A DNA stretch of 64,000 nucleotides, taken from a virus. Each line of letters opens with the position of its first letter. Within the stretch, counting starts at the first letter, position 1. The notes beneath the pieces were generated by a model that ran no database searches, had not been told where the DNA came from, and saw only the letters and a program-made list of their open reading frames with translations. The stretch is taken from positions 162,699 to 226,698 of the IMG/VR virus record IMGVR_UViG_3300025098_000012. One strand, given 5' to 3'. Shown here piece after piece: positions 5,104 to 64,000 of the stretch. The translations under genes and the position numbers were made by a program.

Positions 5104-5150
5104 GTTTTTTCTCCATTGGTTTTTGGTTAATGAGATCACCTATGTGAAGA

Positions 5151-6605: not shown

Positions 6606-7484
6606 TTAACGCTGTACAGTAAGACGAGCAAGACCACGAGGGTTGTAAGCTCCGATACCCAAGTTTTCAAAGACACTGAAGCCGATTGTACGAGCTTTAG
6701 GATCGTCAGCAGAAAGGACGGTCAACTCGGTACGAACAGGGATACGACCAAACATCTCTGGCTCACAGCAGACATAAACAGTTCCAACAGGAACAAGTCG
6801 GCTAGTGATGATCTGAGCACCCCAAAGGGTAGCCTGTAGACCAGTCTTGAGAAGTGCCGCTTGGCTCTCGATGTCGAGAATGTCACGACCGAACTTACGG
6901 ATGTCAGCGTAATCACGAGCATTCATGAATACACGAGCAACACGAAGGTCATGACGCTCAATGAGGCTGTATGCGTCAGCAAGAACAGCACCATTAAGAG
7001 GAGCGATAACAGGAATGTCAGCGTTAGTCTGACCTGCAACGCTATCAAATCCGTTAGCCGCAACTGCATCAAGGATAGCGAATACACGCTCGTCCTCAGC
7101 CGCTTGGATTTGAGCACGAGCAAGATCCTGAGCACGCTCGATAAGGTCGAACCTACGCTCTTTGATCTGTGTGAGTGGGATCTCTGGGTTAGAAGCGATC
7201 TCAAACAATGGGAAGATAACCCTGCGTGGCTTGGTGATAGCAAGGATGTTCTCACCCTCTTCACCAACTACGAAAGCAGTCACATCGGGATCTTTGTCGT
7301 AGATAGGTAAAGCACCATCTGGAAGTTGCTCGACTAAGAAAGTCTTACGACCAACAGAGGTGTAATCTCTACGAAGGCGAAGTGGTTGAGTCATTGAAGC
7401 GGCGAGCTTCGCACGACCCTGTGGAGTCTTAATGTAGTCAGAAATGATCTTCTGTTTTACGGCATTATCAACTGTATTACTCAT
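6606..7484 (-). CDS. Major capsid protein (HK97-fold type)
   Basis: The 292-residue protein has the look of an HK97-type capsid subunit. It has an N-terminal arm, the segment SMTQPLRLRRDYTSVGRKTF, an E-loop-like GALPIYDKDPDVTAFVVGEE, a long spine helix (RFDLIERAQDLARAQIQAAE) and a C-terminal A-domain with LWGAQIITSRLVPVGTVYVC. It is the last gene in the order protease, scaffold, decoration, capsid, the expected head-gene order. A P1 motif before the preceding gene and a strong terminator after this one frame the pair. No long N-terminal propeptide is apparent. Confidence 0.75.
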   Translation of the reverse strand: MSNTVDNAVKQKIISDYIKTPQGRAKLAASMTQPLRLRRDYTSVGRKTFLVEQLPDGALPIYDKDPDVTAFVVGEEGENILAITKPRRVIFPLFEIASNPEIPLTQIKERRFDLIERAQDLARAQIQAAEDERVFAILDAVAANGFDSVAGQTNADIPVIAPLNGAVLADAYSLIERHDLRVARVFMNARDYADIRKFGRDILDIESQAALLKTGLQATLWGAQIITSRLVPVGTVYVCCEPEMFGRIPVRTELTVLSADDPKARTIGFSVFENLGIGAYNPRGLARLTVQR

Positions 7485-7506
7485 AATAAATCACTCTTCC
7501 TTTCTA

Positions 7507-8100
7507 TCAAATGCGTTGGTCGTATACCAACTCATCAGAAGTTGAGTCGGGAGCGATTTTAAGAATACCGATAGTAGTAGTATCAGTATGAGCGTTTGCG
7601 TTTCCTGTCTCAGTAGTCAAGAAACCATTACGAGAAGCAACAAGTGAAGCACCTGGAACATATGCTTGAGTCAAAGCTCCACCACCGTTGTCAATACGGA
7701 TTGTCTCATAAAGAAGGTTTGCGTAAGTACCTTGTGCAGAAACATAAGGTCCTCGGTTTGACGCAACACCTGGTTGGTTTTCAAAAGCATTGCCCGAAGC
7801 ATTGTTGATGAAAACACCAAGTACACGCTCAGTTGCAGGTGCAACAGCCTGTGAAGGCCCACCATGCTCATTAGCAGTACCACGAGTAAAAGCGATAGAA
7901 CCACTAAGTACACCGAGTACATTTGTTAAAAGTCCAGGAGCGGTGGTAGTATCACCGTTACCTGCAAAATCTACGGGGTTAGACTGAGTGAAAGCACTGC
8001 TGTGTAGTTGACCTACAGTGTTACGCACACCAACATGGAGGATACGCAACGCAGAGCTTGACTCTGTAAAACCACCACTAGCTTGTCCAAGTAGAGCCAT
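7507..8100 (-). CDS. Capsid decoration-like structural protein
   Basis: The 197-residue protein is rich in Gly, Ala, Ser, Thr and Asn, with repeated short beta motifs, typical of head decoration or other virion surface proteins. It lies 22 bases upstream of the capsid gene on the same strand, where head-stabilising proteins are often encoded. The ribosome site AGGAG is clear. Exact role (decoration versus fibre) cannot be told from sequence alone. Confidence 0.55.
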   Translation of the reverse strand: MALLGQASGGFTESSSALRILHVGVRNTVGQLHSSAFTQSNPVDFAGNGDTTTAPGLLTNVLGVLSGSIAFTRGTANEHGGPSQAVAPATERVLGVFINNASGNAFENQPGVASNRGPYVSAQGTYANLLYETIRIDNGGGALTQAYVPGASLVASRNGFLTTETGNANAHTDTTTIGILKIAPDSTSDELVYDQRI

Positions 8101-8122
8101 GAGATTTCTCCTATTTAGCTCG

Positions 8123-8145
8123 TACTCTCTGTTTTCAAGAGAGTA
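8123..8145 (-). promoter_or_regulatory. 5' leader hairpin before the decoration/capsid operon
   Basis: The eight-base arms TACTCTCT and AGAGAGTA pair perfectly around a seven-base loop, between the P1 motif at 8214 and the ATG at 8100. There is no T run, so it looks like a 5' UTR stabilising or regulatory stem on the capsid mRNA rather than a terminator. Confidence 0.5.
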
Positions 8146-8213
8146 GTGTTGTGTTGAAATAGGGTGGTCTTACAACCAACCCCGAAAAGGTTTTCCAATA
8201 TAATAGCGTCAGA

Positions 8214-8228
8214 TATAAATAAACTATT
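8214..8228 (-). promoter_or_regulatory. P1 promoter-like motif before capsid operon
   Basis: Gene-sense AATAGTTTATTTATA, about 110 bases upstream of the decoration/capsid genes. Its position before the most highly expressed structural genes supports a late promoter role. Confidence 0.55.
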
Positions 8229-8245
8229 ACAAGTTTATCTATATC

Positions 8246-9814
8246 TTATCCGAAGAACTTGCTTACATCGGGAGCAGACTCCCAAAGTTTAGAAAGCTCA
8301 TCAGAAGCACTTGAAGCCTCACGAGAGATGTTACCGAGAGTCTTAACAGCCGCTTTACGAGCAGAGGTGCGTGGGCGATAAGAAGCCTTCTTATCAGCCT
8401 TTTCCTCTTTAGCCTCTTCCTCAGTAGCTTCTTCTTCGGTAGCTTCTTCTTCGGTAGCTTCTTCCTCAGTAGCTTCTTCCTCAGTAGCTTCTTCGGTAGA
8501 CTCTTCCTCAGCGTCTTCATCAGCCGCTGTGAAGATTGAAGCGAGGCGAGGGTCCATAGCCATTGCATCTTCTGCGTCCATGTCAAGACCCATGACATCT
8601 TCACCCATGCTCATTGTAGTTTCGACTTCTTCAGCAGTATATCCATACTCTGGATCATTCTGCTCACGAGTGTCATCTGCTTCAAGCTCTGCAAGGAGAG
8701 TTGCCATCTCATTATCAGCAGTAGTGTCCATGTCAGACATATAAGTTGAAAGAGCTTCTGCAAGACGCTCAATCTTTGCTAAACGCTGAGTAGGCTGACC
8801 CTCTGAAGGCTCACTAGCAGGAGCAGTCTCAAGTGCTACAGTGTCGTTCTGACCTTGATAGCCTGTACCAACTTGTACTGCGTTATCAGCGAGTTTACGA
8901 ACCTTGCGAGCAAGACGAGCATTAGCGGCTTTAAGAGTAGCGATTTCTTCTGCGAGAGCTTCGGCTGATGAAGAGTGATCCTCAGCCATCATCATAGCCT
9001 CGTGATCTTCAGCCATCAACATTGCTTCGTGATCTTCAGCTTCAAGATCAGCCATGATTTGTGAAAGCTCATCTTCTGCTTCAAGTTCGTCTGCGAAAGA
9101 CTCACCAAGACCAAGAGCGATTTCATCACGAGAAAGGAAGCCATCCTCATTCATATCAAGATCGTCAAAGATCTCGTCAGAGCCACCCCATTCGTCCATA
9201 GAAATCATGCCATCGCCATCGGTGTCATAAGCGTCAAACATAGAGTGACCCATGTGATCGTCAGCTTCTAGTTCATCACTTGCATTTCCTGGTCCTGTGA
9301 ATTCAAGACCTTCATCATACTCAGTTCCAACTTGTACAGCATTGTCAGCAAGACGAGCAACACGAGCATTAACAGTACGACTAGGAAGATCCATCATGCG
9401 AAGTGCAAGATCCTCGATCTCACGCTGTGAAGCAGTACGACCAAGACGACTTTCAGCGATGCGAATGCACTTAGCCGCTTTACGCTCCATAGCTTTTTTA
9501 AGGTTCTCTTGGCGAAGGTCATCAGTAAGAGCATAATCTTCAACAAGCTCATCGCTTACAGCAGGATGCTCTGGCTCCCAACCATAAGATGCAGGAGCAG
9601 GACCAGAACGGTAAGGTCCTTTACGGACTCCTTCACCGAACTCTGAGTCGAAGCCATACTGATCTACAGAAGGCTGATCGGATGAAGCAGGGTGACCGAA
9701 GTGATCCCAACCAAGATTATCGTATCCTGGGAGGCCAGAGTTTGCTCTGCGATTTCTTCTACGAGCAAGCTCTGCCCTGCGAGACATATTCTTAGAACGA
9801 GAATACCTAGACAT
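8246..9814 (-). CDS. Acidic scaffold-like protein with paired EF-hands
   Basis: The 522-residue, strongly acidic protein sits between protease and capsid genes, the usual place of the scaffold. Two canonical 12-residue EF-hand loops are visible, at 197-208 (DTDGDGMISMDE) and 220-231 (DMNEDGFLSRDE), each with Asp at 1, 3/5, Gly at 6 and Glu at 12, so calcium binding is likely. Two copies of ADNAVQVGT occur (about 156-164 and 309-317) beside helical segments, and DHEAM-type repeats occur around 261-280. A TEEEA tandem repeat and a basic tail follow. Scaffold role is from position and composition; EF-hands there are unusual. Confidence 0.65.
   Translation of the reverse strand: MSRYSRSKNMSRRAELARRRNRRANSGLPGYDNLGWDHFGHPASSDQPSVDQYGFDSEFGEGVRKGPYRSGPAPASYGWEPEHPAVSDELVEDYALTDDLRQENLKKAMERKAAKCIRIAESRLGRTASQREIEDLALRMMDLPSRTVNARVARLADNAVQVGTEYDEGLEFTGPGNASDELEADDHMGHSMFDAYDTDGDGMISMDEWGGSDEIFDDLDMNEDGFLSRDEIALGLGESFADELEAEDELSQIMADLEAEDHEAMLMAEDHEAMMMAEDHSSSAEALAEEIATLKAANARLARKVRKLADNAVQVGTGYQGQNDTVALETAPASEPSEGQPTQRLAKIERLAEALSTYMSDMDTTADNEMATLLAELEADDTREQNDPEYGYTAEEVETTMSMGEDVMGLDMDAEDAMAMDPRLASIFTAADEDAEEESTEEATEEEATEEEATEEEATEEEATEEEAKEEKADKKASYRPRTSARKAAVKTLGNISREASSASDELSKLWESAPDVSKFFG
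8415..8500. repeat. 15-base tandem repeat coding TEEEA
   Basis: About five to six copies of a 15-base unit (TTCCTCAGTAGCTTC or TTCTTCGGTAGCTTC on the plus strand) encode repeated TEEEA residues near the C-terminus of the scaffold-like protein. The copies differ at synonymous positions. The tract could vary in length by slippage. Confidence 0.7.
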
Positions 9815-9852
9815 AAGGCTATTCCTTTCTGTGGGGTGAAACAGGGCGAGAC

Positions 9853-11292
9853 TTATTTCTGCCCGTAAGTGTTAAGGGATAAGAGTTTAGCTAATCTTAC
9901 AAGACGAAGAGTGTCTTGCTTCGACAGATTTTTACCATTTAAGTAGCTTGCTTGCTCCAGATAATCAACTACATCATTATACTGACTGGTTGAGCCGAGC
10001 AAACTAGCTAACTTATAAACATGGGTAGGAATCTGAACATTACAGTGATTATTCACTAGAGTTATGTTCAGTACAGCTTCTTCAACAGACTTAGCTGTTC
10101 TAACAGAAGCATCTAAGAGGCTCATGTACTTGGAAGCAGACATACCCTCTTTGACAATCGTATCGTTTTGTTCAACGACAGACTTATCAATAGGTGGGTT
10201 CATTACTTCTTGAGCCTTCTCTGCTTTGAGTTCGTTTTCTAGCTTTTGGCGAAAACGATCTACAATAGCAGTCTCGTAAACATTTTCGAGCTGTTTCAAC
10301 AAAGACTCGGAAGGTGCGTCAGCTTTATCATCACCACCTTCATCCTCATCCATGTCAAAAGGTCCAGCTTTCTTGTTTAGCTGACCATGAGGGTCATACC
10401 AAGGAGAACTCTGTAAACTAGACGCTTTAGCAATCCACTTCTGTGGAACTTCATTAAGTTGATCATCAGAAGCTGATTTAGCCATGTCAGCTTTAGGGAT
10501 GTCTAATACATTGCGAGCGACAGCTCCTACAAATGCAGGGGTTGCAACCCAAGATGCTTCGATGAATGTAACACCTGCTGTACCACCGATTTCTTCATGA
10601 CCACAAAGCTCTGCTACTCTATGTTGATTTCCTTGTTCATCATAGAAAACATTGCCTTTCTCATATTTGATATGAGAACACATCTCGGTTTCATCAGCGG
10701 CCACATGACCACATTTGGTGCAAATGGTAAAGTCTACGCTACATCCCATAGACATTGAGTTCATTTGACCCGACTCAATCTGTTTAACCAAGTCTTTGTG
10801 TTTGCGATCAGTAGCGACAAGGATGTCTACATATAAAGAATCACCGATGTCTCTAAGAACAGCATCAATGATCCGACCCTTAGATAGTTCTTCAACTTGG
10901 ATATGCTCAACAAAGTTATGAGCACCAATGAAGGTCTGATAAGATTTCTTAATCACACCTCTTGACCATGAGTCGAGGTTGTTATTGATGAACTTATCAG
11001 TGCCAGAGCTGACACGATAGTCAGCGTATTTACGATTAATAGTTTGTCCACCCTCAGTGATCGAGCCTGTCTTTGTGTTTGGAGGTGTGATTGCATCGAC
11101 AGAGCAAACGATAGTGGAGTGGGTAAGTAGAAATCTATCGGGAGTGAAAGGTTCGCCTAAGATGTCCTCTGCTTGCTTTTTGAGCGAAGCATTGATGGTT
11201 TTAGCACCAGAAGCGATCCTTACCTTATCCCATTGTAGACCATGAATGGAGGGCTGAACTACATTAGCCCTAGCATATCTTAAAAATGCCAT
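9853..11292 (-). CDS. Prohead maturation protease with zinc-finger insert
   Basis: The N-terminal half of this 479-residue protein looks like a gp21/S78-type capsid protease. A His-containing segment (FIGAHNFVEHIQ) is followed by beta strands (SLYVDILVAT) and a serine-bearing GQMNSMSMGCSVDF. A zinc-finger-like insert follows (CTKCGH ... C ... H), then FIEASWVATPAF. The C-terminal half (from about residue 300) is acidic and coiled, and may be a delivery or scaffold-like domain. It sits directly upstream of the scaffold-like gene, matching T4 order (21, 22, 23). The exact catalytic Ser/His pairing is inferred. Confidence 0.65.
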   Translation of the reverse strand: MAFLRYARANVVQPSIHGLQWDKVRIASGAKTINASLKKQAEDILGEPFTPDRFLLTHSTIVCSVDAITPPNTKTGSITEGGQTINRKYADYRVSSGTDKFINNNLDSWSRGVIKKSYQTFIGAHNFVEHIQVEELSKGRIIDAVLRDIGDSLYVDILVATDRKHKDLVKQIESGQMNSMSMGCSVDFTICTKCGHVAADETEMCSHIKYEKGNVFYDEQGNQHRVAELCGHEEIGGTAGVTFIEASWVATPAFVGAVARNVLDIPKADMAKSASDDQLNEVPQKWIAKASSLQSSPWYDPHGQLNKKAGPFDMDEDEGGDDKADAPSESLLKQLENVYETAIVDRFRQKLENELKAEKAQEVMNPPIDKSVVEQNDTIVKEGMSASKYMSLLDASVRTAKSVEEAVLNITLVNNHCNVQIPTHVYKLASLLGSTSQYNDVVDYLEQASYLNGKNLSKQDTLRLVRLAKLLSLNTYGQK

Positions 11293-11295
11293 GCT

Positions 11296-14200
11296 TTACC
11301 CCTTAACGATGTCGGAAGGTTTGATGATAAAGAGGCAGGTATAACAAGCGAGCAGTTTCTCACTCTTACCTCCTCTTCTTTTGTAAACAGTATTGCCGAG
11401 TGGAGTTTTACACTTGGGACAACAAGGTTTTTCCTCATTCCGACATTGGCGATAAGTACGATCTTTCTTATACCAATAAATAGCTTGCTTCATGTATCTG
11501 GAGGCAACACGATTAGCTTGCTTTTTGACGGCACGAGAAGTTACAGGAACAGTACCAGCTCCACCTGGTATAGTATCTTGATCGTCAGTATAAATGTTCA
11601 AGTAATCACCCGAAGTATCTACAACAAGATCTTCTACAGGATAGCGTTGCGATCCATGAGGGAACTGCACATCGACCATACCAATTGCAGGGAAGATAGC
11701 TATAACGAGTCCAGACCTTGACGGATTACCACCAAGAAAGGGGTATACACGCATCCCTAGCTCGAACGCTTGGGATCTACGCTGATAGTCAACATATTGT
11801 GTAGATCGTTTTTGCATGATTACAGTGCCTCCACTCTTATAGTAGGTGTCAATAAATGATCTATTAAAATTATTTGCTTGTTTATTTGATGAGGTAGACT
11901 CAATTTCTTGTGTCGCTGTGTCATCAAATAGCTCAGTAAGCCTACTTCTTATGTCTTTGAGCCTCTGTCTCTTAGTCGCACCATCTAAACTTTTCACTTT
12001 TTCTAGTTCTTGCTGTATCTGCTCCCATCTAAACTTTTTCGTGTTATCACTGTAGAGCTGAATACCGTCAATGCTACTCCGAGTTTCTTCAATTCTCCAT
12101 CTTGTCCTAAATTCTTCTCCAGCGGCTTCTCTCTCTTCTTCGGTGTATTCTTTACCAGTTGATAGATCAACACCATCAACGAACACCTCGAAAAACTTAT
12201 CTTTGTTTTCTCTCCAAAAGAGCTTCATTTGCTCTTTGACTTTCTTAGAAGGACCAGAGCTATCACCTTTAGGTTTGTAGTAGCCATCCCCCTTAGACTC
12301 TTTTTCGACAGTATGGAGATTAACGAAACCTCCACTCATGTAATCCCTTAACAGTTTCTTCATGTCATCAGACAATGGGTTAGGACAGGGATCATCTGAG
12401 GGGAGGAGCTTCTTGTCTCCCACACCTGCGGCGTTATTTGTAGGCCCACCAGGACAGTAGTCGTCATCTAATAAATCCAACATATCTCCATAAGGTCCTT
12501 GCTCACCTCCAACTACAGCTTTAAAATCTTCTGTGTCGAGGTTTTCAGTGACCGACTCAATCAAATCTCGTGTCTTACTAGGGTTAGTGCCTTGTTGGGA
12601 GAGCATACTGATGCCTTCTTCCCAAGCCTCTGATCCTGTTTGTCTTGCGAGTTCAAGTAATCGGTCGGGTACTTCGGCATACCCATCAATGACACCCTCA
12701 CTATTTATCATGCGTATTGTATTGAGGGCTGTTTCAGATGCTTTTAAGTTTACGAGCTTACCCTGTAATGATTTCTTTTCTTCATCAGACAGACCTTCCC
12801 CATCATTTTCTAGGAGTGCTTTTGCTTCACCAATCTCCTCTGCGACCCTTCCAACCATAGCATTACGCTGTTCTTCATTCATCTTCTTAAAGCGTCTGCC
12901 TTGAACTCTGCGTACATTCTGTAGGTGCTTCTCTTTATCGTGATCATCCCCATCAGTAGGGAACTCAAGTAGCCCGAACTCTGGATCTTCCACAATACTC
13001 TTTTGTGCATGGGTTGTTGCTAAGTAGCTACCTAGATTTTGTGCGTACTCCTTTTGAACAGCCTCATAGTTTTCTAAGTCTGATTTTAAGGAACTGAGAG
13101 AATCTTCTGCATCTTTCAAAGAATTCTTAAGTTGCTTTAGAGTTTCCTCATCTGTGTCATCGTCAGCTTCCGATAACTTTTGTTGAGCTTTATTCACCTT
13201 GTCGGTGGTTTCCTTAATGTCCTTATTGAGTTGTTCTACTGTAGGAGGAGGTGTGGGGGGCTTTAAATCCTTTGCCTCTTCGTCAATGTAAGACTGTAGA
13301 CCATCGAGTCCTTGATTTCTCATCACTTCTTCGACTTTGAATGCACCGGATCCGTAAGCCTGCACCATTTGTTGAACTTGATCTTCGGTCAACTCATCAA
13401 GTGCATCTACAGTTTCACTTATCCTTTGAATAAATGTGCGAGTGCTCTTTCTAGTTGATGCAAGATCCTTCTTCTCAAGTCCTTTGATTTGTTCCTTGAG
13501 ATCACGCTTCTCTTTATCGCTTAAAGAAGGATCTTCGAGCTTTTTTTCGAGATTCTCTATCTTCTCACTCGTGCCTTTGCTTAACTTATCCCTAAAGGCT
13601 TTCTCAAGGCGATCCTTGATTTCTGCCTTTTGGACATAGCTCGGCTGTTCCAATAAAGGAGCACCTTCAACAAACGGAGGTTCTTCTTTCGGAGGTGTAT
13701 CATCCCCCTTTGCGTCATCCTTTCCCGATTCATTTCTAGGTTTTGGCTCACCCTTACCTTTGCTTTTACCCTTGCCTTTGGGTTCTTCTTCTCCTGTTTG
13801 CTTCTCACGCTCTTTAGCTCTCTCGTCCAAGACATCTTTGGTTTCTTTTACTTCTTCTTCAGTAATGTCGGATGCCTCTTGAACATCAACCTCGACAGCA
13901 TCAATCCCCTCTTCTTCAAGAGATGTGGTGAGCTTTTCAGCGACTCTCTTTTTATAAGGACCTCGCTTTTTGCCTTTATCGGATCTTGTTTTTCTTTTCT
14001 TCTTAGGTGGTGGTTCACCTACTTCTTCCCGAACCTCCTCATGGATGTCCATAAGAAGAGCCATAATGTCTCTCATGGTGCGTTCTTCAACAAGAGACAT
14101 ATCTCTCATATCACGACCATTGTTCATCCTTGAGAGCAGGTCATATTGTTCATCATTGAGAGTAGCGGCTACGGAATAGCTGACATCACTAGAGTCTCCC

Positions 14201-14541
14201 TTAGACCCTCTAGCTTTATCCATAGCTTTGTTAAAGTCTTGGACAGCTTTTGGGTGGGCACGATTATAAGCTGTATTAAACGACAACTCATCACCTGTCA
14301 GCCTACTCTTATACTTACGACTTTTGAGCTTGTCTTTGACCTTCTTAACGATCTTCTGCTCTTTTTTCTGTTTCCTTTTCTGCTCTGGCGTGAGCTTTTG
14401 CTTCTTTCGCTTTTTCTTTTTAGTTGGCTTACGAGATCCGTCCTCACGCTTTTGAGAAGCCGCAACTCGGTGTGCCTCTAAAAGAAGGCGATCTGTTTTC
14501 TCTAGCTCCGTTTGGAGTTCTAGTAGAAGGCGACTAATCAT
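11296..14541 (-). CDS. Very large charged head-cluster protein with C-terminal zinc ribbon
   Basis: The 1081-residue protein begins with a helix containing AHRVAASQ. It continues with a lysine-rich stretch (about 30-80), long acidic and coiled-coil regions, and a folded C-terminal part. The latter includes a Tudor/SH3-like FPAIGMVDVQFPHGSQRYPV, the RVASRYMKQ tag, and a zinc ribbon built from CCPKC and, about 20 residues on, CYTC. It is co-directional with the head genes and separated from the protease gene by three bases. I cannot assign a function; a virion core, scaffold or packaging-associated protein is plausible. Composition differs from neighbours (very high Lys/Glu). Confidence 0.55.
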   Translation of the reverse strand: MISRLLLELQTELEKTDRLLLEAHRVAASQKREDGSRKPTKKKKRKKQKLTPEQKRKQKKEQKIVKKVKDKLKSRKYKSRLTGDELSFNTAYNRAHPKAVQDFNKAMDKARGSKGDSSDVSYSVAATLNDEQYDLLSRMNNGRDMRDMSLVEERTMRDIMALLMDIHEEVREEVGEPPPKKKRKTRSDKGKKRGPYKKRVAEKLTTSLEEEGIDAVEVDVQEASDITEEEVKETKDVLDERAKEREKQTGEEEPKGKGKSKGKGEPKPRNESGKDDAKGDDTPPKEEPPFVEGAPLLEQPSYVQKAEIKDRLEKAFRDKLSKGTSEKIENLEKKLEDPSLSDKEKRDLKEQIKGLEKKDLASTRKSTRTFIQRISETVDALDELTEDQVQQMVQAYGSGAFKVEEVMRNQGLDGLQSYIDEEAKDLKPPTPPPTVEQLNKDIKETTDKVNKAQQKLSEADDDTDEETLKQLKNSLKDAEDSLSSLKSDLENYEAVQKEYAQNLGSYLATTHAQKSIVEDPEFGLLEFPTDGDDHDKEKHLQNVRRVQGRRFKKMNEEQRNAMVGRVAEEIGEAKALLENDGEGLSDEEKKSLQGKLVNLKASETALNTIRMINSEGVIDGYAEVPDRLLELARQTGSEAWEEGISMLSQQGTNPSKTRDLIESVTENLDTEDFKAVVGGEQGPYGDMLDLLDDDYCPGGPTNNAAGVGDKKLLPSDDPCPNPLSDDMKKLLRDYMSGGFVNLHTVEKESKGDGYYKPKGDSSGPSKKVKEQMKLFWRENKDKFFEVFVDGVDLSTGKEYTEEEREAAGEEFRTRWRIEETRSSIDGIQLYSDNTKKFRWEQIQQELEKVKSLDGATKRQRLKDIRSRLTELFDDTATQEIESTSSNKQANNFNRSFIDTYYKSGGTVIMQKRSTQYVDYQRRSQAFELGMRVYPFLGGNPSRSGLVIAIFPAIGMVDVQFPHGSQRYPVEDLVVDTSGDYLNIYTDDQDTIPGGAGTVPVTSRAVKKQANRVASRYMKQAIYWYKKDRTYRQCRNEEKPCCPKCKTPLGNTVYKRRGGKSEKLLACYTCLFIIKPSDIVKG

Positions 14542-14547
14542 TGCAGA

Positions 14548-15189
14548 CTACCCTCTCAAGTTAAGGAACTTACGAGCAACACGCTGTGCCATCTTCTCAC
14601 TTCTACGAGAAAGATCGGGATCACCTTTGTCTCCACGACCAACACCTTGTAGATCGGGGTCATCGCTAATTTGTACTCTGTTCTTACGGAGGTCTTTGCG
14701 AGGAGGCTTATTCTTAGGAGATCTCCTAACGAGCTTTTCAACTGCTTCGTCCTCTTTTTCAGCTTGGGTCTTAGTCGCTACTCTCTTGTGAGGACAGATA
14801 TATGAACTTGCCTTACGCTCCATACTCGCCATCTTGCGAACATCAAAGCAATGTCCTGCAAAACTCTTTCTGAGAACTCTAAGTGCTTGAGCGAGGATGA
14901 GGTAAAACCTATGAGCGTGTTCGCTCTCTCTGGTGTCTAGCCAAACAGCTTGGAGCTTTCTAACTTCTTCAGCTTTACCGTCTAAAACATCTACATATTT
15001 AAGCTCTTTATCAAGAGAGACAGCTTCCTCAAAAAGTGCTTCTATGGTGAGGAAATGCTTACGGATGCAGTCTGGACATCTTTTACGAGGTTGGTTAAGA
15101 TGATCTTCGAGTAGGACAATCTGTTTACAGATCTCTCGTAAGTTATATAAGGGACTCATAATCGGCAATAAACCTTGATCGTTGCTCAT
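14548..15189 (-). CDS. Head-cluster protein with CxxC motif and C-terminal RVARKFL tag
   Basis: The 213-residue protein starts MSNDQGLLP; I chose this ATG because GAGGTG precedes it and a P1 motif lies about 40 bases upstream. A CPDCIRKHF motif near residue 38 suggests metal binding. The middle is helical, and the tail is basic, ending in AQRVARKFLNLRG, a version of the RVAxRYL tag. It is the promoter-proximal gene of the operon leading through protease and scaffold. Function unknown. Confidence 0.6.
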   Translation of the reverse strand: MSNDQGLLPIMSPLYNLREICKQIVLLEDHLNQPRKRCPDCIRKHFLTIEALFEEAVSLDKELKYVDVLDGKAEEVRKLQAVWLDTRESEHAHRFYLILAQALRVLRKSFAGHCFDVRKMASMERKASSYICPHKRVATKTQAEKEDEAVEKLVRRSPKNKPPRKDLRKNRVQISDDPDLQGVGRGDKGDPDLSRRSEKMAQRVARKFLNLRG

Positions 15190-15232
15190 AACTACACCTC
15201 TTTTTTTTGGGATACTAACTACAAGTAGGAAA

Positions 15233-15247
15233 TATAAACAAACTATT
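15233..15247 (-). promoter_or_regulatory. P1 promoter-like motif before head operon
   Basis: Gene-sense AATAGTTTGTTTATA, about 45 bases upstream of the 15189 start. It lies back to back with the plus-strand P2 motif at 15261. Confidence 0.55.
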
Positions 15248-15260
15248 AAACTAAGAGAGC

Positions 15261-15277
15261 GTAACCCCTTATTTATA
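15261..15277 (+). promoter_or_regulatory. P2 promoter-like motif
   Basis: GTAACCCCTTATTTATA, 43 bases before the ATG at 15320. It is divergent from the P1 motif 14 bases away. Confidence 0.65.
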
Positions 15278-15319
15278 TCTCTATGTAAGAACCACCAAAC
15301 ACTCTTAAAGGAGAACAAC

Positions 15320-15583
15320 ATGGGCAAGAAAAGACCAGATCAAGTGAAGCGAGTCCACGAGGCTTTGAAGATGAACGCTAAAGAGGCCAAGTACGGTATG
15401 CCGTACTGTAAGTGGCGAAAAGAAGAATCTCGTTGGGAGATCTCAGACGCTTCGGGTCGAGATGCGTCAATGTTCTTCTATCCCGAAGGGGAGCGTTGGA
15501 CTTATCAAGCTCCTTACTACGATGAGGAGGACTCAACCTTTAGTCGTTCACTTGGGAACGCCTACTGTTGTTACACAGGTTAA
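15320..15583 (+). CDS. Hypothetical protein, 87 aa
   Basis: It starts MGKKRPDQVKRV behind a clear AAAGGAG ribosome site; a longer upstream frame would run through the P1/P2 promoter region. The product is rich in Tyr, Trp and charged residues (CKWRKEESRWEISDASGRD), suggesting a small folded domain. No family recognised. It is P2-driven, so probably early-expressed. After the stop an ACAGG/CCTGT stem may be a weak terminator. Confidence 0.65.
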   Translation: MGKKRPDQVKRVHEALKMNAKEAKYGMPYCKWRKEESRWEISDASGRDASMFFYPEGERWTYQAPYYDEEDSTFSRSLGNAYCCYTG

Positions 15584-50782: not shown

Positions 50783-50784
50783 AA

Positions 50785-53584: not shown

Positions 53585-53622
53585 CACATCTCCTTCGGTT
53601 TGTTTCACAGCAAAGGAGGAGG

Positions 53623-54483: not shown

Positions 54484-54750
54484 ATGTCATTACCTAGAGA
54501 ACGAAAAAGAGCTGACTATCGAGTCATTGCTCGCATCTTGCAACTGAGTCATGGACAAGCAGATCCAAAAGACTCATTGCTTGAAAAGATTTCTAATGTA
54601 TTTAATCGTAATGGTGGCTCTTGGGTATTATTCTTTGAAGGACACCCAAAACACAGCAAGCTACTTAAAGTAGTGATAAAAGCTGTCGTAAAACATAAGA
54701 AGGATCAACATGAGCGAAGAACTAGAAGCCAAATCAGTTGGGAAGATTAA
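54484..54750 (+). CDS. Hypothetical basic protein, 88 aa
   Basis: Basic and helical (MSLPRERKRADYRVIARILQ). It overlaps the portal start by 41 bases. The preceding purine run (AAAGGGGGG) could be its ribosome site. Function unknown. Confidence 0.5.
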   Translation: MSLPRERKRADYRVIARILQLSHGQADPKDSLLEKISNVFNRNGGSWVLFFEGHPKHSKLLKVVIKAVVKHKKDQHERRTRSQISWED

Positions 54751-56386
54751 ACCCCGATCAAAAGCGATCACTCGTAAGCTCAATCCTGCCGAGATGAAAT
54801 CGAGGGTCAAAGTGGCGATGACCACAGGAGGCTCTATGATGGGGTCGGGTGGGAACTTCTACTCACCAGAGTTATCTACTGACTTTCTTGAACTACCTCA
54901 AAGTCAAGACGAACAACGCAACTACTTTAGGTTCTTTTATCGCACTGACCCCTTCGTAGGACAGGCGATTGATCTACATACAGAGCTTCCCCTCTCTAAG
55001 ATCAGATTAGGGCTACCTAAAGCTCGCAACCGAGACATGGCTTATGAAGCACTTAGGTTCTGTGAAAAATGGGCGAAGCGAGTCGGACTACTTCACCGAC
55101 TCATAGAAATCTTACATGAGTTCAACCTGCTCGGTGAGGTTTTTGTTTTCTGTGAGGACAATAATCCAGATGTGCCTCAAGAGGTGACACATAGTGGTCG
55201 GAATGTTCTTAAAGAAGATGGCGAAGCGTTTACTGAGTGGACTGAGTATGAGGACTCCCATGAACGAGCTTACAAGTGGCTCAAGAGGAACTATAAAGGG
55301 TGGACAGGTGTTCGTATCCTCCCTCCCGAACAAGTTCACATGGAGAGTTTTCCTTTCACTAGTGAGAAGATCATTCAACTTATTCCCGATAGTAAAACTC
55401 GTGATGTAGTTGAACGAGCTTCGGTTAATGATCCCTCTGCTCTTCGTATTGTAGACTCAATGCCAGGAGATGTTGTAGAAGCTATTCGAGATGGTCGCAA
55501 CATTGACCTCAATACTGATCCCGATCAAGGATCATTCGTTTATTATATGGCTCGTAAGAAATCACAATATGAACCTCGTGGACACTCTATGCTTGAGCGT
55601 TGTCTTCGTATCCTCGTTTATCGAGATAAATTAAGACAAGCCCAAACTTCTATCGCTTCAAGACACATGACTCCTATCCGACTCGTATATGCAGAGGATA
55701 TGGATGCGTCTGATGTTGAAGAGTTGAGAGATCAAGTGGATCTTGCACTACAAGATCCAGACTATTCTATCATCGCTAACTTCCAAGTCTCTTGGGAAGA
55801 GATGGGTGCTGACTCTCGTTTGCTTGAACTATCGGGCGAATATGATATGACAGACCGACAGATGTATGCAGGTCTAGGTGTTACAGAATCTCTGTTATCT
55901 GGTGAGTCTAGTTATAGTGGCGATAGGATCAACTTAGAAGTCATCAACACACGCTATATGCTTATGCGTGAGGTTCTTCAAGAGATGGTTGAAGAGAACA
56001 TCTTGAAGCCAATGTGTAGACGAATGGGTTTCGTTGAAATAGATGAAGATGGTGATGAGGTTGTAGTACACCCAACCCTTAGCTTCACTCGACTTGGATT
56101 GCGTGATAATCAAGATACCTTTGACGCTCTCTTTAACCTGTATCAGAAGGGTTCATTGGACATTGATGTGATCCTAGAACTCCTCAATGTAGATCCTATG
56201 ACAACTAAGGCTAAACTTGAGCGTGATATGTGGACACTCAATGACTCTCAGTTTAACGAAGTTCTGAGAGGGGTCTATGGTGAAGCAGGTCGTATGTTAG
56301 CCGAGAACACAGAAGCGATTGAGATCATCGCTAAGAATCTTGGATTAAAGTACAACCCACCAGAAGATGACGGTGGTCGTTTCTAA
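54710..56386 (+). CDS. Portal protein
   Basis: The 558-residue protein has portal hallmarks: RTDPFVGQAIDLHTELPLSK near the start of the wing, a long clip/stem region, FQVSWEEMGADSRLLELSGE and LGVTESLLSGESSYSGDRIN, followed by helices (YMLMREVLQEMVEENI). Twelve copies should form the DNA-entry vertex. It lies far from the capsid operon (over 40 kb), unlike T4-type order. AAGGATC precedes the ATG. Its stop merges into the P1/leader module. Confidence 0.85.
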   Translation: MSEELEAKSVGKIKPRSKAITRKLNPAEMKSRVKVAMTTGGSMMGSGGNFYSPELSTDFLELPQSQDEQRNYFRFFYRTDPFVGQAIDLHTELPLSKIRLGLPKARNRDMAYEALRFCEKWAKRVGLLHRLIEILHEFNLLGEVFVFCEDNNPDVPQEVTHSGRNVLKEDGEAFTEWTEYEDSHERAYKWLKRNYKGWTGVRILPPEQVHMESFPFTSEKIIQLIPDSKTRDVVERASVNDPSALRIVDSMPGDVVEAIRDGRNIDLNTDPDQGSFVYYMARKKSQYEPRGHSMLERCLRILVYRDKLRQAQTSIASRHMTPIRLVYAEDMDASDVEELRDQVDLALQDPDYSIIANFQVSWEEMGADSRLLELSGEYDMTDRQMYAGLGVTESLLSGESSYSGDRINLEVINTRYMLMREVLQEMVEENILKPMCRRMGFVEIDEDGDEVVVHPTLSFTRLGLRDNQDTFDALFNLYQKGSLDIDVILELLNVDPMTTKAKLERDMWTLNDSQFNEVLRGVYGEAGRMLAENTEAIEIIAKNLGLKYNPPEDDGGRF

Positions 56387-56399: not shown

Positions 56400-56446
56400 C
56401 CCTCTCATAAGTGATCTCTTTAACCTTAAACCAATGGAGAAAAACC

Positions 56447-56740
56447 ATGAGAAGATCTGCTAGTGAAACTATTAGAAATCTTGAAGATCGTATCGCTCGC
56501 CTTGAAGGTAAGACAGCGAAAATCAACCTCAAATCCCTTGCCAAGCACATAAGTAAAAAAAGAAGCGATGGTACTGGTACTGTTGGCTTTGTGGAATATG
56601 ACGCACGAAGCCAAACAGTAATTTTCCTCAATGGGGACTATGAAGATATAGTAGTACCTGTAGACAAGTTGTTAGCTCAACTTATCCGAGAGGAGATGGG
56701 TAATGACCTGTATGACTTAGAGGGCAACACTATCAGTTAA
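56447..56740 (+). CDS. MRRSA-tag family protein, 97 aa
   Basis: It begins MRRSASETIRNLEDRIARLE, with a tail unrelated to other members (SLAKHISKKRSDGTGTVGFV, then an acidic strand). Leader and first codons match copy A almost exactly, so these two cassettes share a recent origin. Function unknown. Confidence 0.7.
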   Translation: MRRSASETIRNLEDRIARLEGKTAKINLKSLAKHISKKRSDGTGTVGFVEYDARSQTVIFLNGDYEDIVVPVDKLLAQLIREEMGNDLYDLEGNTIS

Positions 56741-58519: not shown

Positions 58520-60382
58520 ATGCAGAATATAACTAGTAGAATAAGACCACCAAGAGCAGTAGTCGAACAGATCGAAGAATACCTATTAAGCCAAGTCGGG
58601 GTATACGAAACCCTTAATCTAAATGTTAATGTTCCCCCACCTCCAAGAACTCGTGGTTATGTAGAGGACTTAGACTTGAGAGTGGAGATAATTCCTCCTC
58701 ATGCGTCTGAAAAATATAATAGAGTTGAAGCTAAATATGACTCTACGAACTCTGTTCTTTATGTGAACCTCCCCTACTTTGAAAAAAAATATGAGGGAAG
58801 GGAACTAGCAGAAGCTCTTTACAGAGTAGTCGCTCACGAGCTAGTTCATGTATATCAAATCCTTTATACTAGATCACGAGATGGCGATCCGAGATCTGAC
58901 TCTCCAACAGCAGGGCTTCCTGGACTTAGAGAGAGAACCCCACAATATAGACAGGAAACAGGTGAGATACTTGACCATCGTTTAGACGACAATGAGTTTT
59001 ACCCACGCTTAGAGGACACCATCAATGCAATCAACTTTGTAGCGAGAACAAGGCAAGATGAGATAGCGAGTATCATTTCTTATGTTGTAGGTGAGTCAAA
59101 ACGACCAGCGTACCGTTCTAAGCACTTAAGAGAGCCTATGGCATGGCTTGAAGACTTAGGGAAGTACGCACCTAAAAAGTTCCTCAAAGCTGTGAGAAAG
59201 ATCAAGAACGAGTTCCCCGAAACAGCAAAAATGCGTACTGCCGATTTCTTTAGGCAGGTTAGTCCTCCCGATGAGTTAAGTACCTTTAGTAATGGAACAC
59301 CCACAGGTAAAGGAACAGACCTTAAAGACAAAGGTGAAGGCTCTCAAATGCCAAATGGAGATGGAGCTAGGAATATAGGTCGCCCTAGCCCCGACTCCCC
59401 TAACCTTAAATCAAGAAATCTTGATCGCTCTGAGTCTTATGGTCGTAAGCCTGCTGAGGGATTTGATGGAGGTTATGTGCATGATAGTGGTAGCGGTAGT
59501 GCTAGGGTTATCCCTTATGATAGTGGTTTTGCGAACAACTCATCTCCTTTGAGAAAAGCGTCAAAGCGTGTTGCTCACAGATACTTAGATTCATTAAAAG
59601 CACCTTCGATGAAGACATCGGCAAGACCGATACGCATTGATAAAGCTAAGATCAAAGAGATGACTAAGGATGCGATCAAAACCCTTGAGGACATAGTTAA
59701 GAAAACTAAGGAGGAAACCTTATCCAAAGCTATCAAACGCAAGACGAGAGACGGAACTATATTTCTAGGTAGCTACCTAGATTCTGGTTCCTCTATTGAG
59801 ATTCAGATCATGGTCAAAGAAACGCACGAAAATGGGCAGTACATCTACAATCCACAAAGGGGTTTGCATGAGATCGAAATCTATCTTGCAGATAGAACCG
59901 TCAAAGAACTGACTCACCCTTATCTGTATAAAATGTCAATAAGACCAGCGATGGTTAAGCACATATACTCTATTCTCATACATGAGATTACTCATGCCGT
60001 TGAGCGAATCCGATACTTGCAGACTGACGAGGACTTGCTAGGCTTTGGTTTAAATCAAGGATCTAGGTTTGATAAGGCAAAGATCAAGACACGCAAAGAC
60101 AAAGATAAGGTATTAAAGGCGTATTACAATGACCCTAGCGAGGTTAAGGCTTACCTCCAACAGATTGCTGATGAAGTAGAGGAATACCTTAACCAAAAGC
60201 ATGGAGGGCTGTCTAAAGAATCCCTACAGTCTGGTTGGAGAGATTCTTTTGGTTATTACGGTTCTAAGACTTGGGATCAAGTTTCTAAATACCTCACCCC
60301 AAAGAACCAAAAGTATATCAAGAAAGCAGTGCTCTCACATCTCATAGAGACCATAGACTCAAAGGAATCAACCAATGGCTAA
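58520..60382 (+). CDS. Protein with two HExxH metallopeptidase-like domains
   Basis: The 620-residue protein starts MQNITSRIRPPRAVVEQIEE after AAGGAG. Domain 1 has VVAHELVHVYQ (HELVH near 113) and a downstream acidic motif DDNEFYPRLED. A disordered linker rich in Gly, Ser and Pro leads to KRVAHRYLDSL, a tag. Domain 2 has LIHEITHAVERIRY (HEITH) and later DPSEVKAYLQQ. HExxH plus a distant Glu suggests zinc peptidases, but no known family is recognised. The next two genes carry related domains. Confidence 0.65.
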   Translation: MQNITSRIRPPRAVVEQIEEYLLSQVGVYETLNLNVNVPPPPRTRGYVEDLDLRVEIIPPHASEKYNRVEAKYDSTNSVLYVNLPYFEKKYEGRELAEALYRVVAHELVHVYQILYTRSRDGDPRSDSPTAGLPGLRERTPQYRQETGEILDHRLDDNEFYPRLEDTINAINFVARTRQDEIASIISYVVGESKRPAYRSKHLREPMAWLEDLGKYAPKKFLKAVRKIKNEFPETAKMRTADFFRQVSPPDELSTFSNGTPTGKGTDLKDKGEGSQMPNGDGARNIGRPSPDSPNLKSRNLDRSESYGRKPAEGFDGGYVHDSGSGSARVIPYDSGFANNSSPLRKASKRVAHRYLDSLKAPSMKTSARPIRIDKAKIKEMTKDAIKTLEDIVKKTKEETLSKAIKRKTRDGTIFLGSYLDSGSSIEIQIMVKETHENGQYIYNPQRGLHEIEIYLADRTVKELTHPYLYKMSIRPAMVKHIYSILIHEITHAVERIRYLQTDEDLLGFGLNQGSRFDKAKIKTRKDKDKVLKAYYNDPSEVKAYLQQIADEVEEYLNQKHGGLSKESLQSGWRDSFGYYGSKTWDQVSKYLTPKNQKYIKKAVLSHLIETIDSKESTNG

Positions 60383-62336
60383 AAATGTACCTACCGATGA
60401 GAAGTTATGGACTGAGATACAATCTCTAGCTAAAGGTGAGTCTAGTAAGCCTGTTTCTAGGGGTAAAGAGTCTGTCAATCCTGTGAATGATGGGAAAGGG
60501 TTTGAAACTTTCCCATCGGCTTATGCTAACGGTTGGGCTTTGGCTCAGTACAAGCGACTAGGTGGTAAGTGGAAAAAGGAATCTAAAAAAGCAGGTCTGA
60601 TAAGACCTCCAAAACATATTGTAGATAAAGTTTCAGAGATACTGACGGCAGGGTTTGCTTCTTATTGGGTTGGGAAGCAAAAGGAAATGGATAATAAACC
60701 GTATTTATCTATATCTCTTGAAAAGATCTCTAACTTTGAAAACCTTATCGAAGATTTAGATGAAGCGTATATGTCCGTAAGGATGAAACGAGCTACTTTT
60801 GATGAATTGGAAAGAGCTTTAAGAGCTTTGAGAGTATCGACTCAAGAGCTTATAGATATGTTTAAAGGGCGAATACCTCCTACCCTTGAAAAGATGAGTC
60901 ATATTTTAGAAAACATGAGTCCGATTAGTGTCTTTGAAGAACCTAAAAAATATAAAAAAGAATTTATGTTTTTAGGTAGGACATTCGGTTTAATTTCAGA
61001 GTTGAGATCTCTGAGACAAGATCCTGTTTCTTACATCTCAGAGAAATCAAGGGCATTATATGAGGGTGAAGCTAATAAAGTTAAAAGGTTTGATAAATTC
61101 TTAGATCGACCTTCTCAATCGACATGGATTTTTCAAACAGAAGATTTAGGCACACTTCGGTTACAAGTAAGAGAATCTAAGGGTGCTAAGGGTTTAGCGT
61201 ATTATCGTTATGATGAAATTGATGATCTACATACAATAACCGTTAGGGTGTTTCCTAACTCCAATGACTTGAGTGGGGAAGATCTAGGTAAGATTAAAGA
61301 TTATGTACGGCATGAGTTAGTTCATGCTATGCAAAAAAAAATGTCATTGGACTTCAATGTTGATCAAGCAGGTATTCCTTTCCAAAAGCGAGATATGACT
61401 TACTTGCAAGGACATAAATACAAAGAAAAAGACCTTAAAGCTCAATATGAAAGAGAGGGTCTTGACTCAGATTTGGTAAGTATCCATGCACTTGATGACA
61501 TCGAGTTTTATACGAGACTTTTAGATGAAGTGGTGGAATTTCAGAGACTTAATGTGAGTGGTTCAGACCTTAATCAAGAGGTGCATGAGTGGGTGTCCAA
61601 AAGAAAATTTTTTGTAAGTTTAAAAAGGTTTAAGAAAAAGAATTGGAACAAGGCTGTTGGTATTTTCTTTGAAGCAGTCAGTTCTAATCGAAAGTATGCT
61701 CGTAAGTGGGACAAAGATCATTGTGAGTCTAAGAGTTGCGATGAGATGGGCTTCTCTGAAAAGGCTTCATGTCGCCCCTATAAGAACTGCTACGAGAAGT
61801 CAGCGTCCTCCAAAGTTAAACCCATGTACTTAGGTTCAGAAAGTGGAGCGATGGCTTACGATTTCTACTTTATGCGTGTGGAAAAGGATTACTATTACCA
61901 CTACACATACAGAGATCGTGCCGAAGAAATAATAGAGGATGGTTATTTAAGACCCAATTTCTACAACGATCAACCAGGAGGACAAGGTGTTTTTGCCATC
62001 TCTGGATCTTATGGACAAGAGGTCACAGACCTTCAAGTCAGTGGTTCTAGGAAAAAACACATGGATAGGATAGTTGCCCTCAAGTTTAAGACTAAAACTG
62101 AGCCTAAGTATGGATACCCCGAAGAAATCATTTGGGATAAACCTGTGAAACTTATTCGACCAGAGATTGTTAGCTTTTCGGAAGCTGAGGCAGACATTAA
62201 GAGGAATGAGGACTTAGGAGAATACTTCAAGGTATTTTACGACTTTAAGAAGGCTGTCGAGATTAAAAAAGAATATGGAACAGTGATCTCTAGGGTTGCT
62301 CACAGATACTTAAGGAATCTAAAAAATGAAACATAA
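60375..62336 (+). CDS. Metallopeptidase-like protein with ART-like C-terminal domain
   Basis: The N-terminus holds ETFPSAYANGWALAQYKRLG, a short segment I recall from large phage proteins. Next come RPPKHIVDKVSEIL (shared with neighbours), VRHELVHAMQ (HELVH) and DDIEFYTRLLDE. A Cys-rich stretch follows (HCESKSCDEMGFSEKASC). The C-terminal part, HYTYRDRAEEIIEDGYLRP then GGQGVFAISGSYGQ, looks like an ADP-ribosyltransferase-type fold. It ends VISRVAHRYLRNLKNET, a tag. It overlaps the previous gene by eight bases. Functions are inferred from motifs only. Confidence 0.6.
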   Translation: MAKNVPTDEKLWTEIQSLAKGESSKPVSRGKESVNPVNDGKGFETFPSAYANGWALAQYKRLGGKWKKESKKAGLIRPPKHIVDKVSEILTAGFASYWVGKQKEMDNKPYLSISLEKISNFENLIEDLDEAYMSVRMKRATFDELERALRALRVSTQELIDMFKGRIPPTLEKMSHILENMSPISVFEEPKKYKKEFMFLGRTFGLISELRSLRQDPVSYISEKSRALYEGEANKVKRFDKFLDRPSQSTWIFQTEDLGTLRLQVRESKGAKGLAYYRYDEIDDLHTITVRVFPNSNDLSGEDLGKIKDYVRHELVHAMQKKMSLDFNVDQAGIPFQKRDMTYLQGHKYKEKDLKAQYEREGLDSDLVSIHALDDIEFYTRLLDEVVEFQRLNVSGSDLNQEVHEWVSKRKFFVSLKRFKKKNWNKAVGIFFEAVSSNRKYARKWDKDHCESKSCDEMGFSEKASCRPYKNCYEKSASSKVKPMYLGSESGAMAYDFYFMRVEKDYYYHYTYRDRAEEIIEDGYLRPNFYNDQPGGQGVFAISGSYGQEVTDLQVSGSRKKHMDRIVALKFKTKTEPKYGYPEEIIWDKPVKLIRPEIVSFSEAEADIKRNEDLGEYFKVFYDFKKAVEIKKEYGTVISRVAHRYLRNLKNET

Positions 62337-64000
62337 GTCTTTAATCGAAAAGGTGGCCCAACGCTATTTAGAGTCTGTAAAGCGTGATGATCCTAAAAAA
62401 AAGAACACTGGTAAGGGTGGGTTAGGTACTTGGTTTGCAGGGCATGGTGGTGGAGATCCCGATGATCGTGCTACATGGGGCGATTGGATTGCTATAACAC
62501 CTGTAAAACACACTATCAAAAAAGAAGATGGAGAGGACAAGACCTATGAACCAGGAGACATTGTTGGCCCATGTGCCATATCTAGTGAAAAAGAGTGGTC
62601 AGATGTTACAAGTGGGGGAAAAAAACCCCTCAAGTGTATGCCACGAGAAAAAGCATGGAAAATGCCCAAGAAAGACCGAGCCGAGATTGCCAAAAAGAAA
62701 AGGCGGGAAGAAGCGAAGCATCGTGGGAAGAAGCCTGTTAATACTCCGACTTTCTCTGATGAAGCTAAAGAGATCACAGAGAAAAAGAAGAAGACTTCTG
62801 GCTTAATCAGACCTCCAAAACACATTGTAGATCAAGTAGCAGAAATAGGTAAAGGATTACTCGCCCAATACTGGATTAAAAGGGAAAAAGAGGATAGCTC
62901 CAAAGGTGGACTAGATCCAGAGTCTGTTGAGGGTCTTGAGTGGATACTTGAGGATCTTGATTATCTGCCACTTGGGGTCAAAAGAGGTGAACATGATGAG
63001 GAAGAAGTGATCTTCCAAGTCAGAAATGTACAGAGAGCTTTTTCCGAGATAGATGAACAGATGGAATCTGCAAACCTCAAATACTCAGACTTCCACAAAA
63101 TCAAGACAAAGATAGATCAGCTCGATGCACAGAGCATCTTTAATGACCCAAGAGGGAATAAGGCTCTCATCGGGTCTATCTCGGATAGGGCATCTGATTT
63201 ACTTCGTGAGTTTAAAAAATGGTCAACAGGGAGTAAACAATACATCCCCACCTTAATGCGTAATGACTACCTTGAAGCTGTCGAACGACTGTCAAAGTAC
63301 AAGGTCAAGGACAGTGGTAGATACTATGTTGAAGATGATGAGCTAGGCTTAGTGGCAGTACATCTTCAAGAGTCCTCACATGGTGCGGCTCAATACTATT
63401 GGGATGGTATTCACCACATCATATTTAATGTTCTCAAGAATATGACTGAACTCCCTCTCAAGTATTTAACAGATCGAGAAACGATAGCAGGACATGAGCT
63501 AGTTCATGCAATGCAACAACATTACGCTAATAAAGCGAACATAGAGGAAGCAGGATTACCAAGTCAGAAAAGAGATGAACAGTTTCGTTTTGACATGAAG
63601 GAGAAACAGAAAGAGCTGAGAGTCCAATATGCTAGAGAGGGGATGGATTTTGAGCTGATCTCTATCCATGCGTTAGATGACATAGAGTTTTACTCTCGCC
63701 TACTCGATGAGGTTACTGAGTTCAAAAGACGCAATAAGGGTCTTAATGATGAAATACATAAATGGGTAAAAAAACGACCTTTTTTTGTAAGTCTTAAGAG
63801 ATTTAAGCGTAGGAATTGGAAAAAAGCAGTAGGCATCTTTGTTGATGCTGTGCAACTTAAAGCTAAGTCAGCTAGTCGGGTAGCTCATCTCTATTTGCAA
63901 GCGGCTGCTCAACCTGCACAAGACCTAGCAGGTGTCAAAACATGGGTCGATAAAACCCGACAAGACCAAATCAATAACGATACCTCTACCCCAAATAAAT
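62326..64000 (+). CDS. Metallopeptidase-like protein, third copy (partial)
   Basis: The frame starts MKHKSLIEKVAQRYLESVKR, the tag at its very N-terminus, overlapping the previous stop, and stays open to the window end. After a short region with WFAGHGGGDPDD and a basic stretch, it repeats the family layout: RPPKHIVDQVAEIG, IAGHELVHAMQQ (HELVH) and DDIEFYSRLLDE. A second tag, SRVAHLYLQAAAQ, follows. It is truncated only by the window. It is clearly a paralog of the previous gene. Confidence 0.65.
   Translation, partial: MKHKSLIEKVAQRYLESVKRDDPKKKNTGKGGLGTWFAGHGGGDPDDRATWGDWIAITPVKHTIKKEDGEDKTYEPGDIVGPCAISSEKEWSDVTSGGKKPLKCMPREKAWKMPKKDRAEIAKKKRREEAKHRGKKPVNTPTFSDEAKEITEKKKKTSGLIRPPKHIVDQVAEIGKGLLAQYWIKREKEDSSKGGLDPESVEGLEWILEDLDYLPLGVKRGEHDEEEVIFQVRNVQRAFSEIDEQMESANLKYSDFHKIKTKIDQLDAQSIFNDPRGNKALIGSISDRASDLLREFKKWSTGSKQYIPTLMRNDYLEAVERLSKYKVKDSGRYYVEDDELGLVAVHLQESSHGAAQYYWDGIHHIIFNVLKNMTELPLKYLTDRETIAGHELVHAMQQHYANKANIEEAGLPSQKRDEQFRFDMKEKQKELRVQYAREGMDFELISIHALDDIEFYSRLLDEVTEFKRRNKGLNDEIHKWVKKRPFFVSLKRFKRRNWKKAVGIFVDAVQLKAKSASRVAHLYLQAAAQPAQDLAGVKTWVDKTRQDQINNDTSTPNK

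Follow-up and report, generated by a model that had tools for sequence, protein, structure and literature searches.

Polyvalent proteins of phages and conjugative elements, which include DdrB of phage P1 and the virion RNA polymerase of phage N4, join zincin peptidases with ART and GNAT domains, and the proposals for their metallopeptidases (MPTases) range from self-processing through activation following entry to an attack on proteins of the host (Iyer et al. 2017, PMC5512222). Phage T4 packs Alt and internal proteins by means of a targeting sequence of 10 residues, which also brings about the packaging and delivery of proteins fused to it (PMC9026906). Two giant phages, SPN3US and phiKZ, have heads that contain many proteins (PMC10052503, PMC7411985), and SPN3US ejects many of its head proteins (PMC10052503, PMC7411985, PMC9026906). 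Here we describe three adjacent genes, A, B and C, from the final 64 kb of a 226,698-base virus contig (IMG/VR record IMGVR_UViG_3300025098_000012, positions 162,699 to 226,698; this whole stretch of 64,000 nucleotides is henceforth the window). They encode domains of two HExxH families, HELVH and HEITH, set among exchangeable modules. We give an even chance to the reading that A–C are virion-packaged, host-directed effectors encoded in a modular cargo locus of a jumbo phage.

The genes lie head to tail on the plus strand, overlapping by 8 bases (A/B) and 11 bases (B/C), and an AAGGA-type ribosome site stands 5' of each ATG. Gene C is incomplete, being open at the contig end. We mapped modules with hidden Markov models (HMMs) built in this analysis; open reading frames (ORFs), ratios of nonsynonymous to synonymous substitution (dN/dS) and structure models supplied further evidence. 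The features of the cassette are as follows.

58520..60382, plus strand: gene A, 620 amino acids, with HELVH domain, P1 anchor, RVA tag and HEITH domain (ORF and ribosome site, HMM module map)
58532..59236, plus strand: HELVH domain of A, a short form without the helical insert; HELVH at 58835-58849, DNEFYPRL at 58988-59011 (alignment, dN/dS, model of A)
59240..59560, plus strand: P1 anchor, nearly invariant and predicted disordered
59567..59587, plus strand: RVAHRYL tag, between the P1 anchor and the HEITH domain of A
59633..60379, plus strand: HEITH domain; HEITH at 59981-59995, NDPSE downstream (relatives and model)
60375..62336, plus strand: gene B, 653 amino acids, with PSAY (DUF5872-like), HELVH, CysRPY and ART-like modules and RVA tag (ORF, module map)
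60384..60578, plus strand: PSAY module, weakly like DUF5872 (PF19197, E 0.018; S-BM3 match)
60591..61706, plus strand: HELVH domain of B; HELVH at 61311-61325, DIEFYTRL at 61497-61520 (alignment, AlphaFold model)
61701..61799, plus strand: CysRPY module, with four Cys and one His (module map)
61806..62243, plus strand: ART-like domain, YHYT...G.L.PN (Tox-ART-HYD1 match, alignment, 18 viral loci)
62292..62312, plus strand: RVAHRYL tag, C-terminus of B
62326..64000, plus strand: gene C, at least 558 amino acids, with RVA tag, KGGL module, HELVH domain, second RVA tag and start of the P2 anchor (ORF, module map)
62350..62370, plus strand: KVAQRYL tag, near the start of C
62386..62775, plus strand: KGGL module (module map)
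62797..63879, plus strand: HELVH domain of C; HELVH at 63493-63507, DIEFYSRL at 63679-63702 (alignment, dN/dS)
63877..63999, plus strand: RVAHLYL tag and the first 32 residues of the P2 anchor, which continues past the contig end

The frames of A–C are real genes under strong purifying selection, because dN/dS against relatives is low throughout (0.14 for the HELVH domain of A, 0.13 for that of C, 0.22 for the PSAY module and 0.017 for the P1 anchor). An earlier note, made from the sequence of the window, had reported HELVH three times and HEITH once in these three overlapping genes, with an RPP..[IV]V helix and a D.EFYxRL motif paired with each HELVH. All of these are present: HELVH begins at residues A106, B313 and C390 and HEITH at A488, with RPP..[IV]V upstream of each HELVH (A9, B77, C162) and D.EFY.RL downstream (A157, B375, C452). 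Shuffling ruled out a chance origin, since shuffled A, B and C carried a mean of 0.09 HExxH motifs and reached four or more in 0 of 20,000 trials.

Relatives of the HELVH domain are encoded at 19 viral loci. A pattern-seeded scan found none among ~85,000 prokaryotic species genomes, and we rejected a host-derived gene on that ground; A–C had no match above cut-off in Pfam, PHROGs, NCBIfam or PADLOC. Judged by sequence, the HELVH domain is a distinct new family confined to phages. The alignment of the 19 sequences is small, and the contigs behind it are metagenomic. In this alignment, HExxHxxQ keeps its H, E, H and Q throughout; a G.P pair, H.LDD.EFY and a small number of C-terminal positions are likewise invariant, and the putative catalytic residues are unchanged down to ~20% identity. 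Several further copies of the family are found in a 275-kb contig (L021/L118; these and similar handles are ours) and in a 416-kb contig (G003; 212490-214935, 398561-399961). The end of an 888-amino-acid ORF (L045-L047) is a divergent member with HEATHAMQ and TGVEFY, in which the DD of DDxEFY is lost and HExxH and EFY are kept. A second island in a 375-kb relative (L035 5377-16813, contig ~199-212 kb) has a distant HELVH-family gene (HEMTH) together with a C39-like cysteine peptidase, a HEIGH metallopeptidase, a GNAT gene and tagged ORFs.

Structure prediction points to a likely zincin fold. The AlphaFold model of the HELVH domain of B, built with the 19 sequences, has a predicted local distance difference test score (pLDDT) of 86.5 and a predicted template modelling score (pTM) of 0.72. 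It runs from an N-terminal helical part through four strands (residues 178-220 in domain numbering) to the HExxH helix (229-254, carrying H241, E242 and H245) and then to a helix that starts at DDxEFY, whose Glu, invariant in the alignment, stands at the start of predicted helix 303-320. The HELVH and HEITH domains of A show the same element order as B at lower confidence; the full-length model of A has an overall confidence of 53 and was used for element order and the disordered linker only. Foldseek searches with both models found no match in the PDB at an E value of 1e-3 or better. The best E value against viral structures was 0.013, and the weak matches there include several annotated peptidases and one polyvalent-domain protein. 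As to the zincin geometry put forward in the earlier note, the element order predicted for B agrees with a zincin; because the fold searches gave nothing significant, we treat the zinc site of the HELVH domain as predicted rather than shown.

The HEITH domain, C-terminal in A, recurs in relatives (L024, L026, L041-L043) as HExTHA followed by YxNxPxExxA, in which the Glu of NxPxE is the candidate third ligand. These relatives were found with a three-sequence alignment as query, a single-sequence query having found none. In the full-length model of A, the domain shows the zincin element order with moderate to low confidence. We kept HELVH and HEITH as two families because only the strand and HExxH stretch of their profiles aligns; homology between them was not upheld (hhalign probability 22%).

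We then compared the cassette across 30 contigs that carry the P1 anchor, the window included and one short locus left unmapped. All 69 module-bearing ORFs lie on one strand, and pieces of A–C recur in other orders, giving 20 module arrangements, some of them shortened by contig ends. P1, the collecting criterion, is present in all 30 contigs, P2 in 28, a Dps-like domain in 25, PSAY and CysRPY in 24 each and KGGL in 23. The counts are 17 for HELVH, 15 for ART, 10 for GNAT, 6 for PAP2 and 4 for HEITH. A core with optional enzymes is the simplest description of the cassette. The segments that the earlier note took as additions to the peptidase domains are themselves mobile modules common to relatives, fused in some and split into separate genes in others. 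One relative (L111/L022) has GNAT-CysRPY-KGGL-PAP2-P1-HELVH in one chain, gene B joins HELVH and ART-like domains in one polypeptide, and one 275-kb contig matches the window in having three HELVH copies and one HEITH. PSAY and KGGL-like modules stand together in one cyanophage protein, encoded beside a small terminase gene. After P2, relatives encode a basic segment (91 amino acids, 45% Lys+Arg) and then the Dps-like domain.

The identity of the optional modules varies in firmness. Pfam or PHROGs support PAP2, at an E value of 2e-13, and GNAT, at 8e-5 (Pfam) and 1e-20 (PHROG). The Cys-rich segment noticed earlier (residues 450-472 of B) accounts for every one of the four Cys of the protein and may form a metal site. 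The ART-like segment has a conserved YHYT..G.L.PN pattern; the family match is weak (Tox-ART-HYD1, E 0.12, below cut-off), and profile comparison gave no solved ART.

Two kinds of element could mark the proteins of this locus. The P1 anchor is the most conserved part of the cassette (98% identical at dS 0.58) and is predicted to be disordered (pLDDT ~30 in the model of A); being disordered yet nearly invariant, it suggests a binding or docking segment. The second is a helix tag, RVAxRY[LM], and the tagged segments of the earlier note are indeed present. Strict copies number 7 and 8 in two long contigs, against ~0 in shuffles, and ~11 in each when variants are allowed. Many stand at protein starts, others at ends or between modules of fused genes, and the tag is frequently placed where a module begins. 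One gene piece forms an ORF of its own, with the tag at its N-terminus, in the phage of the window (contig 19900-20268); in the 375-kb relative (257901-260747) it is fused and the tag lies inside. Tagged proteins of that relative include ART-PolyVal (E 1.9e-12), HAD_SAK_1 (1.5e-18) and a poly(A) polymerase-type nucleotidyltransferase (4.9e-16). We dropped a tag-like match in an ART gene of LR745208, taking it to belong to the ART motif.

A second N-terminal tag, MRRSASE[VI]IRNLEMRIARLE, occurs in at least 8 ORFs of the window's contig (in the window at 51854-53608, 4696-5139, 1900-2415, 56411-56740 and others) and in at least 15 of the 375-kb relative (L062-L080), with 0 in shuffles. Some of its carriers resemble WGR DNA-binding proteins, and it may be a second sorting signal.

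The cassette lies ~2 kb downstream of a portal gene, with a DNA primase-like gene between them, and the window also holds a block of head genes.

54710..56386, plus strand: portal protein gene (phrog_16240, E 8e-32)
6606..15327, minus strand: head gene block (protease phrog_18299, E 1.8e-15; ORFs; tags)

Two RVA-tagged genes of this block (14548-15327 and 11296-14541) lie directly upstream of the head maturation protease gene (9853-11292). The block also has acidic scaffold-like, small and capsid-like genes, the scaffold and capsid calls being made by position and composition only. Searches for a T4-like portal and Peptidase S77 (PF03420) gave no match; control genomes were blank too, so this was not used as evidence. 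Elsewhere in the window, a ClpP-like gene (50108-50785) matches head maturation protease families (phrog_94, E 2.7e-43) and is unrelated to the protease at 9853-11292, and an ORF at 5195-6148, adjoining the capsid-like gene, resembles a free-standing homing endonuclease. An IMP dehydrogenase-like gene (21238-22722) has an intein-like insert; in a relative (L011 14592-17074), such a gene is split by an extra ORF resembling a homing endonuclease.

We propose the following mechanism. HELVH and HEITH would be zincin-type zinc metallopeptidases in which the two His of HExxH and a downstream Glu (of DDxEFY or NxPxE) hold zinc and the Glu of HExxH activates water. The peptidases would be one swappable class of cargo beside the ART-like, GNAT, PAP2 and Dps-like modules, packed into the head during prohead assembly under the guidance of the RVAxRY[LM] helix, the P1 and P2 anchors or both. 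The packed proteins would be ejected with the DNA, and early in infection the peptidases would cleave proteins of the host. What we infer here is zinc binding, proteolysis, packaging, ejection and host targets. As would be expected of independent cargo, the enzyme modules are optional and reordered, in 20 arrangements on one strand, and the core neighbours, the Lys- and Arg-rich segment and the Dps-like domain, would suit packed DNA. Packaging as cargo is indirectly supported because tagged genes lie beside the head maturation protease, a portal gene is nearby and the tag marks ART-PolyVal, HAD_SAK_1 and nucleotidyltransferase proteins, and because T4 relies on a short targeting peptide to package effectors (PMC9026906). 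Several points weigh against this explanation. The fold searches, in the PDB and in viral structures, gave no significant match to a solved zincin, and the ART similarity is weak. RVA tags stand also at protein ends and inside chains, not at starts alone, and some cassette ORFs have no recognizable RVA tag, P1 or P2, so that tag and anchors are candidate targeting signals.

The HELVH peptidases could instead be processing enzymes that cleave the module strings of the locus, or other proteins of the virion, while the head is being assembled or following ejection. Such a role was proposed for polyvalent MPTases (PMC5512222), and fused multi-domain ORFs do carry HELVH in the same chain. However, HELVH is not seen in 13 of the 30 contig stretches with fused modules (some of them incomplete), and a 177-kb contig with a fused core has zero members of the family, so that a cargo role is more likely than obligatory processing. 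With three HELVH domains and one HEITH, the copies also outnumber what processing would need, and modules exist already split into separate genes; we consider this alternative unlikely. Nor do we favor A–C as ordinary intracellular enzymes, made during infection and without a role in the virion, whose RVA tag and P1/P2 anchors serve, for example, localization to DNA or membrane. Although the basic and Dps-like neighbours would suit intracellular DNA binding too, and the DNA primase-like gene between portal and cassette is in keeping with it, this is an improbable account of tagged genes in the head block beside the head protease and of tagged cargo classes that match those of injected polyvalent proteins. 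That HELVH, HEITH or both keep a zincin fold and are inactive as peptidases, serving as structural or binding modules, for instance, is very doubtful: the lost DD of the divergent member suggests drift, but the Glu of HExxH and the Glu of EFY are invariant in the 19 sequences and kept even there.

The reading of A–C as packaged effectors may extend further. As a tentative generalization, which we hold possible rather than probable, jumbo phages would have a dedicated payload locus in which two disordered anchors and a helix tag mark proteins for packaging and enzyme modules (the new zincin family, HEITH, ART, GNAT and PAP2) are swapped freely, each phage injecting its own host-directed set. 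If the proteins are cargo, the payload enzymes of a group of jumbo phages can be read from a single locus, the tag and anchors could serve to find injected effectors in other large phages, and HELVH and HEITH would be new peptidases with bacterial targets to be found. The locus is also a natural experiment on the fusion, splitting and reordering of phage effector modules.

Among described HExxH families, SprT-like, Peptidase M91, PhageMetallopep, BSP and eCIS_core (Pfam) gave weak matches around the HExxH helix, all below cut-off; this helix is what they have in common with HELVH, whereas the matches cover neither the DDxEFY region nor the N-terminal GLIRPP helix bundle. SPN3US and phiKZ, large phages with many ejected proteins in the head and with processing of head proteins, resemble the phage of the window in plan only, with no sequence relation seen or tested. 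The likeness to T4 Alt and internal head proteins lies in a short N-terminal sequence common to unrelated proteins, in ART among the putative cargo and in a head maturation protease; unlike the T4 targeting sequence, the RVA tag is also found C-terminally and inside chains, and no cleavage site is known. Polyvalent proteins, like those of the cassette, hold unrelated enzyme domains in one chain and combine zincin peptidases (1-5 copies) with ART and GNAT. Their peptidases have the order of strands, HExxH helix and Glu helix that is predicted here (PMC5512222), they occur in phages with portal-type packaging, and a close relative of the window's phage has a true ART-PolyVal with the RVA tag. 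MPTase-PolyVal (PF18818) had no match in A–C or their own contig, the search covering 1 of 12 described clades, and no LPD domains were among the Pfam matches of A–C or of the isolated modules. The cassette differs in spreading its modules over several overlapping genes, reordered around P1 and P2. The earlier note had spoken of modular effectors or virion peptidases with no described family of this layout, which holds for the families and for the layout, the latter being far more modular than the note could tell, and less so for the general kind, since polyvalent proteins had been described before (PMC5512222). Multidomain phage conflict proteins that include zincin peptidases are a known kind; nothing in the libraries and papers searched showed these peptidase families, the anchors, the tag or the multi-gene layout with its shuffled modules.
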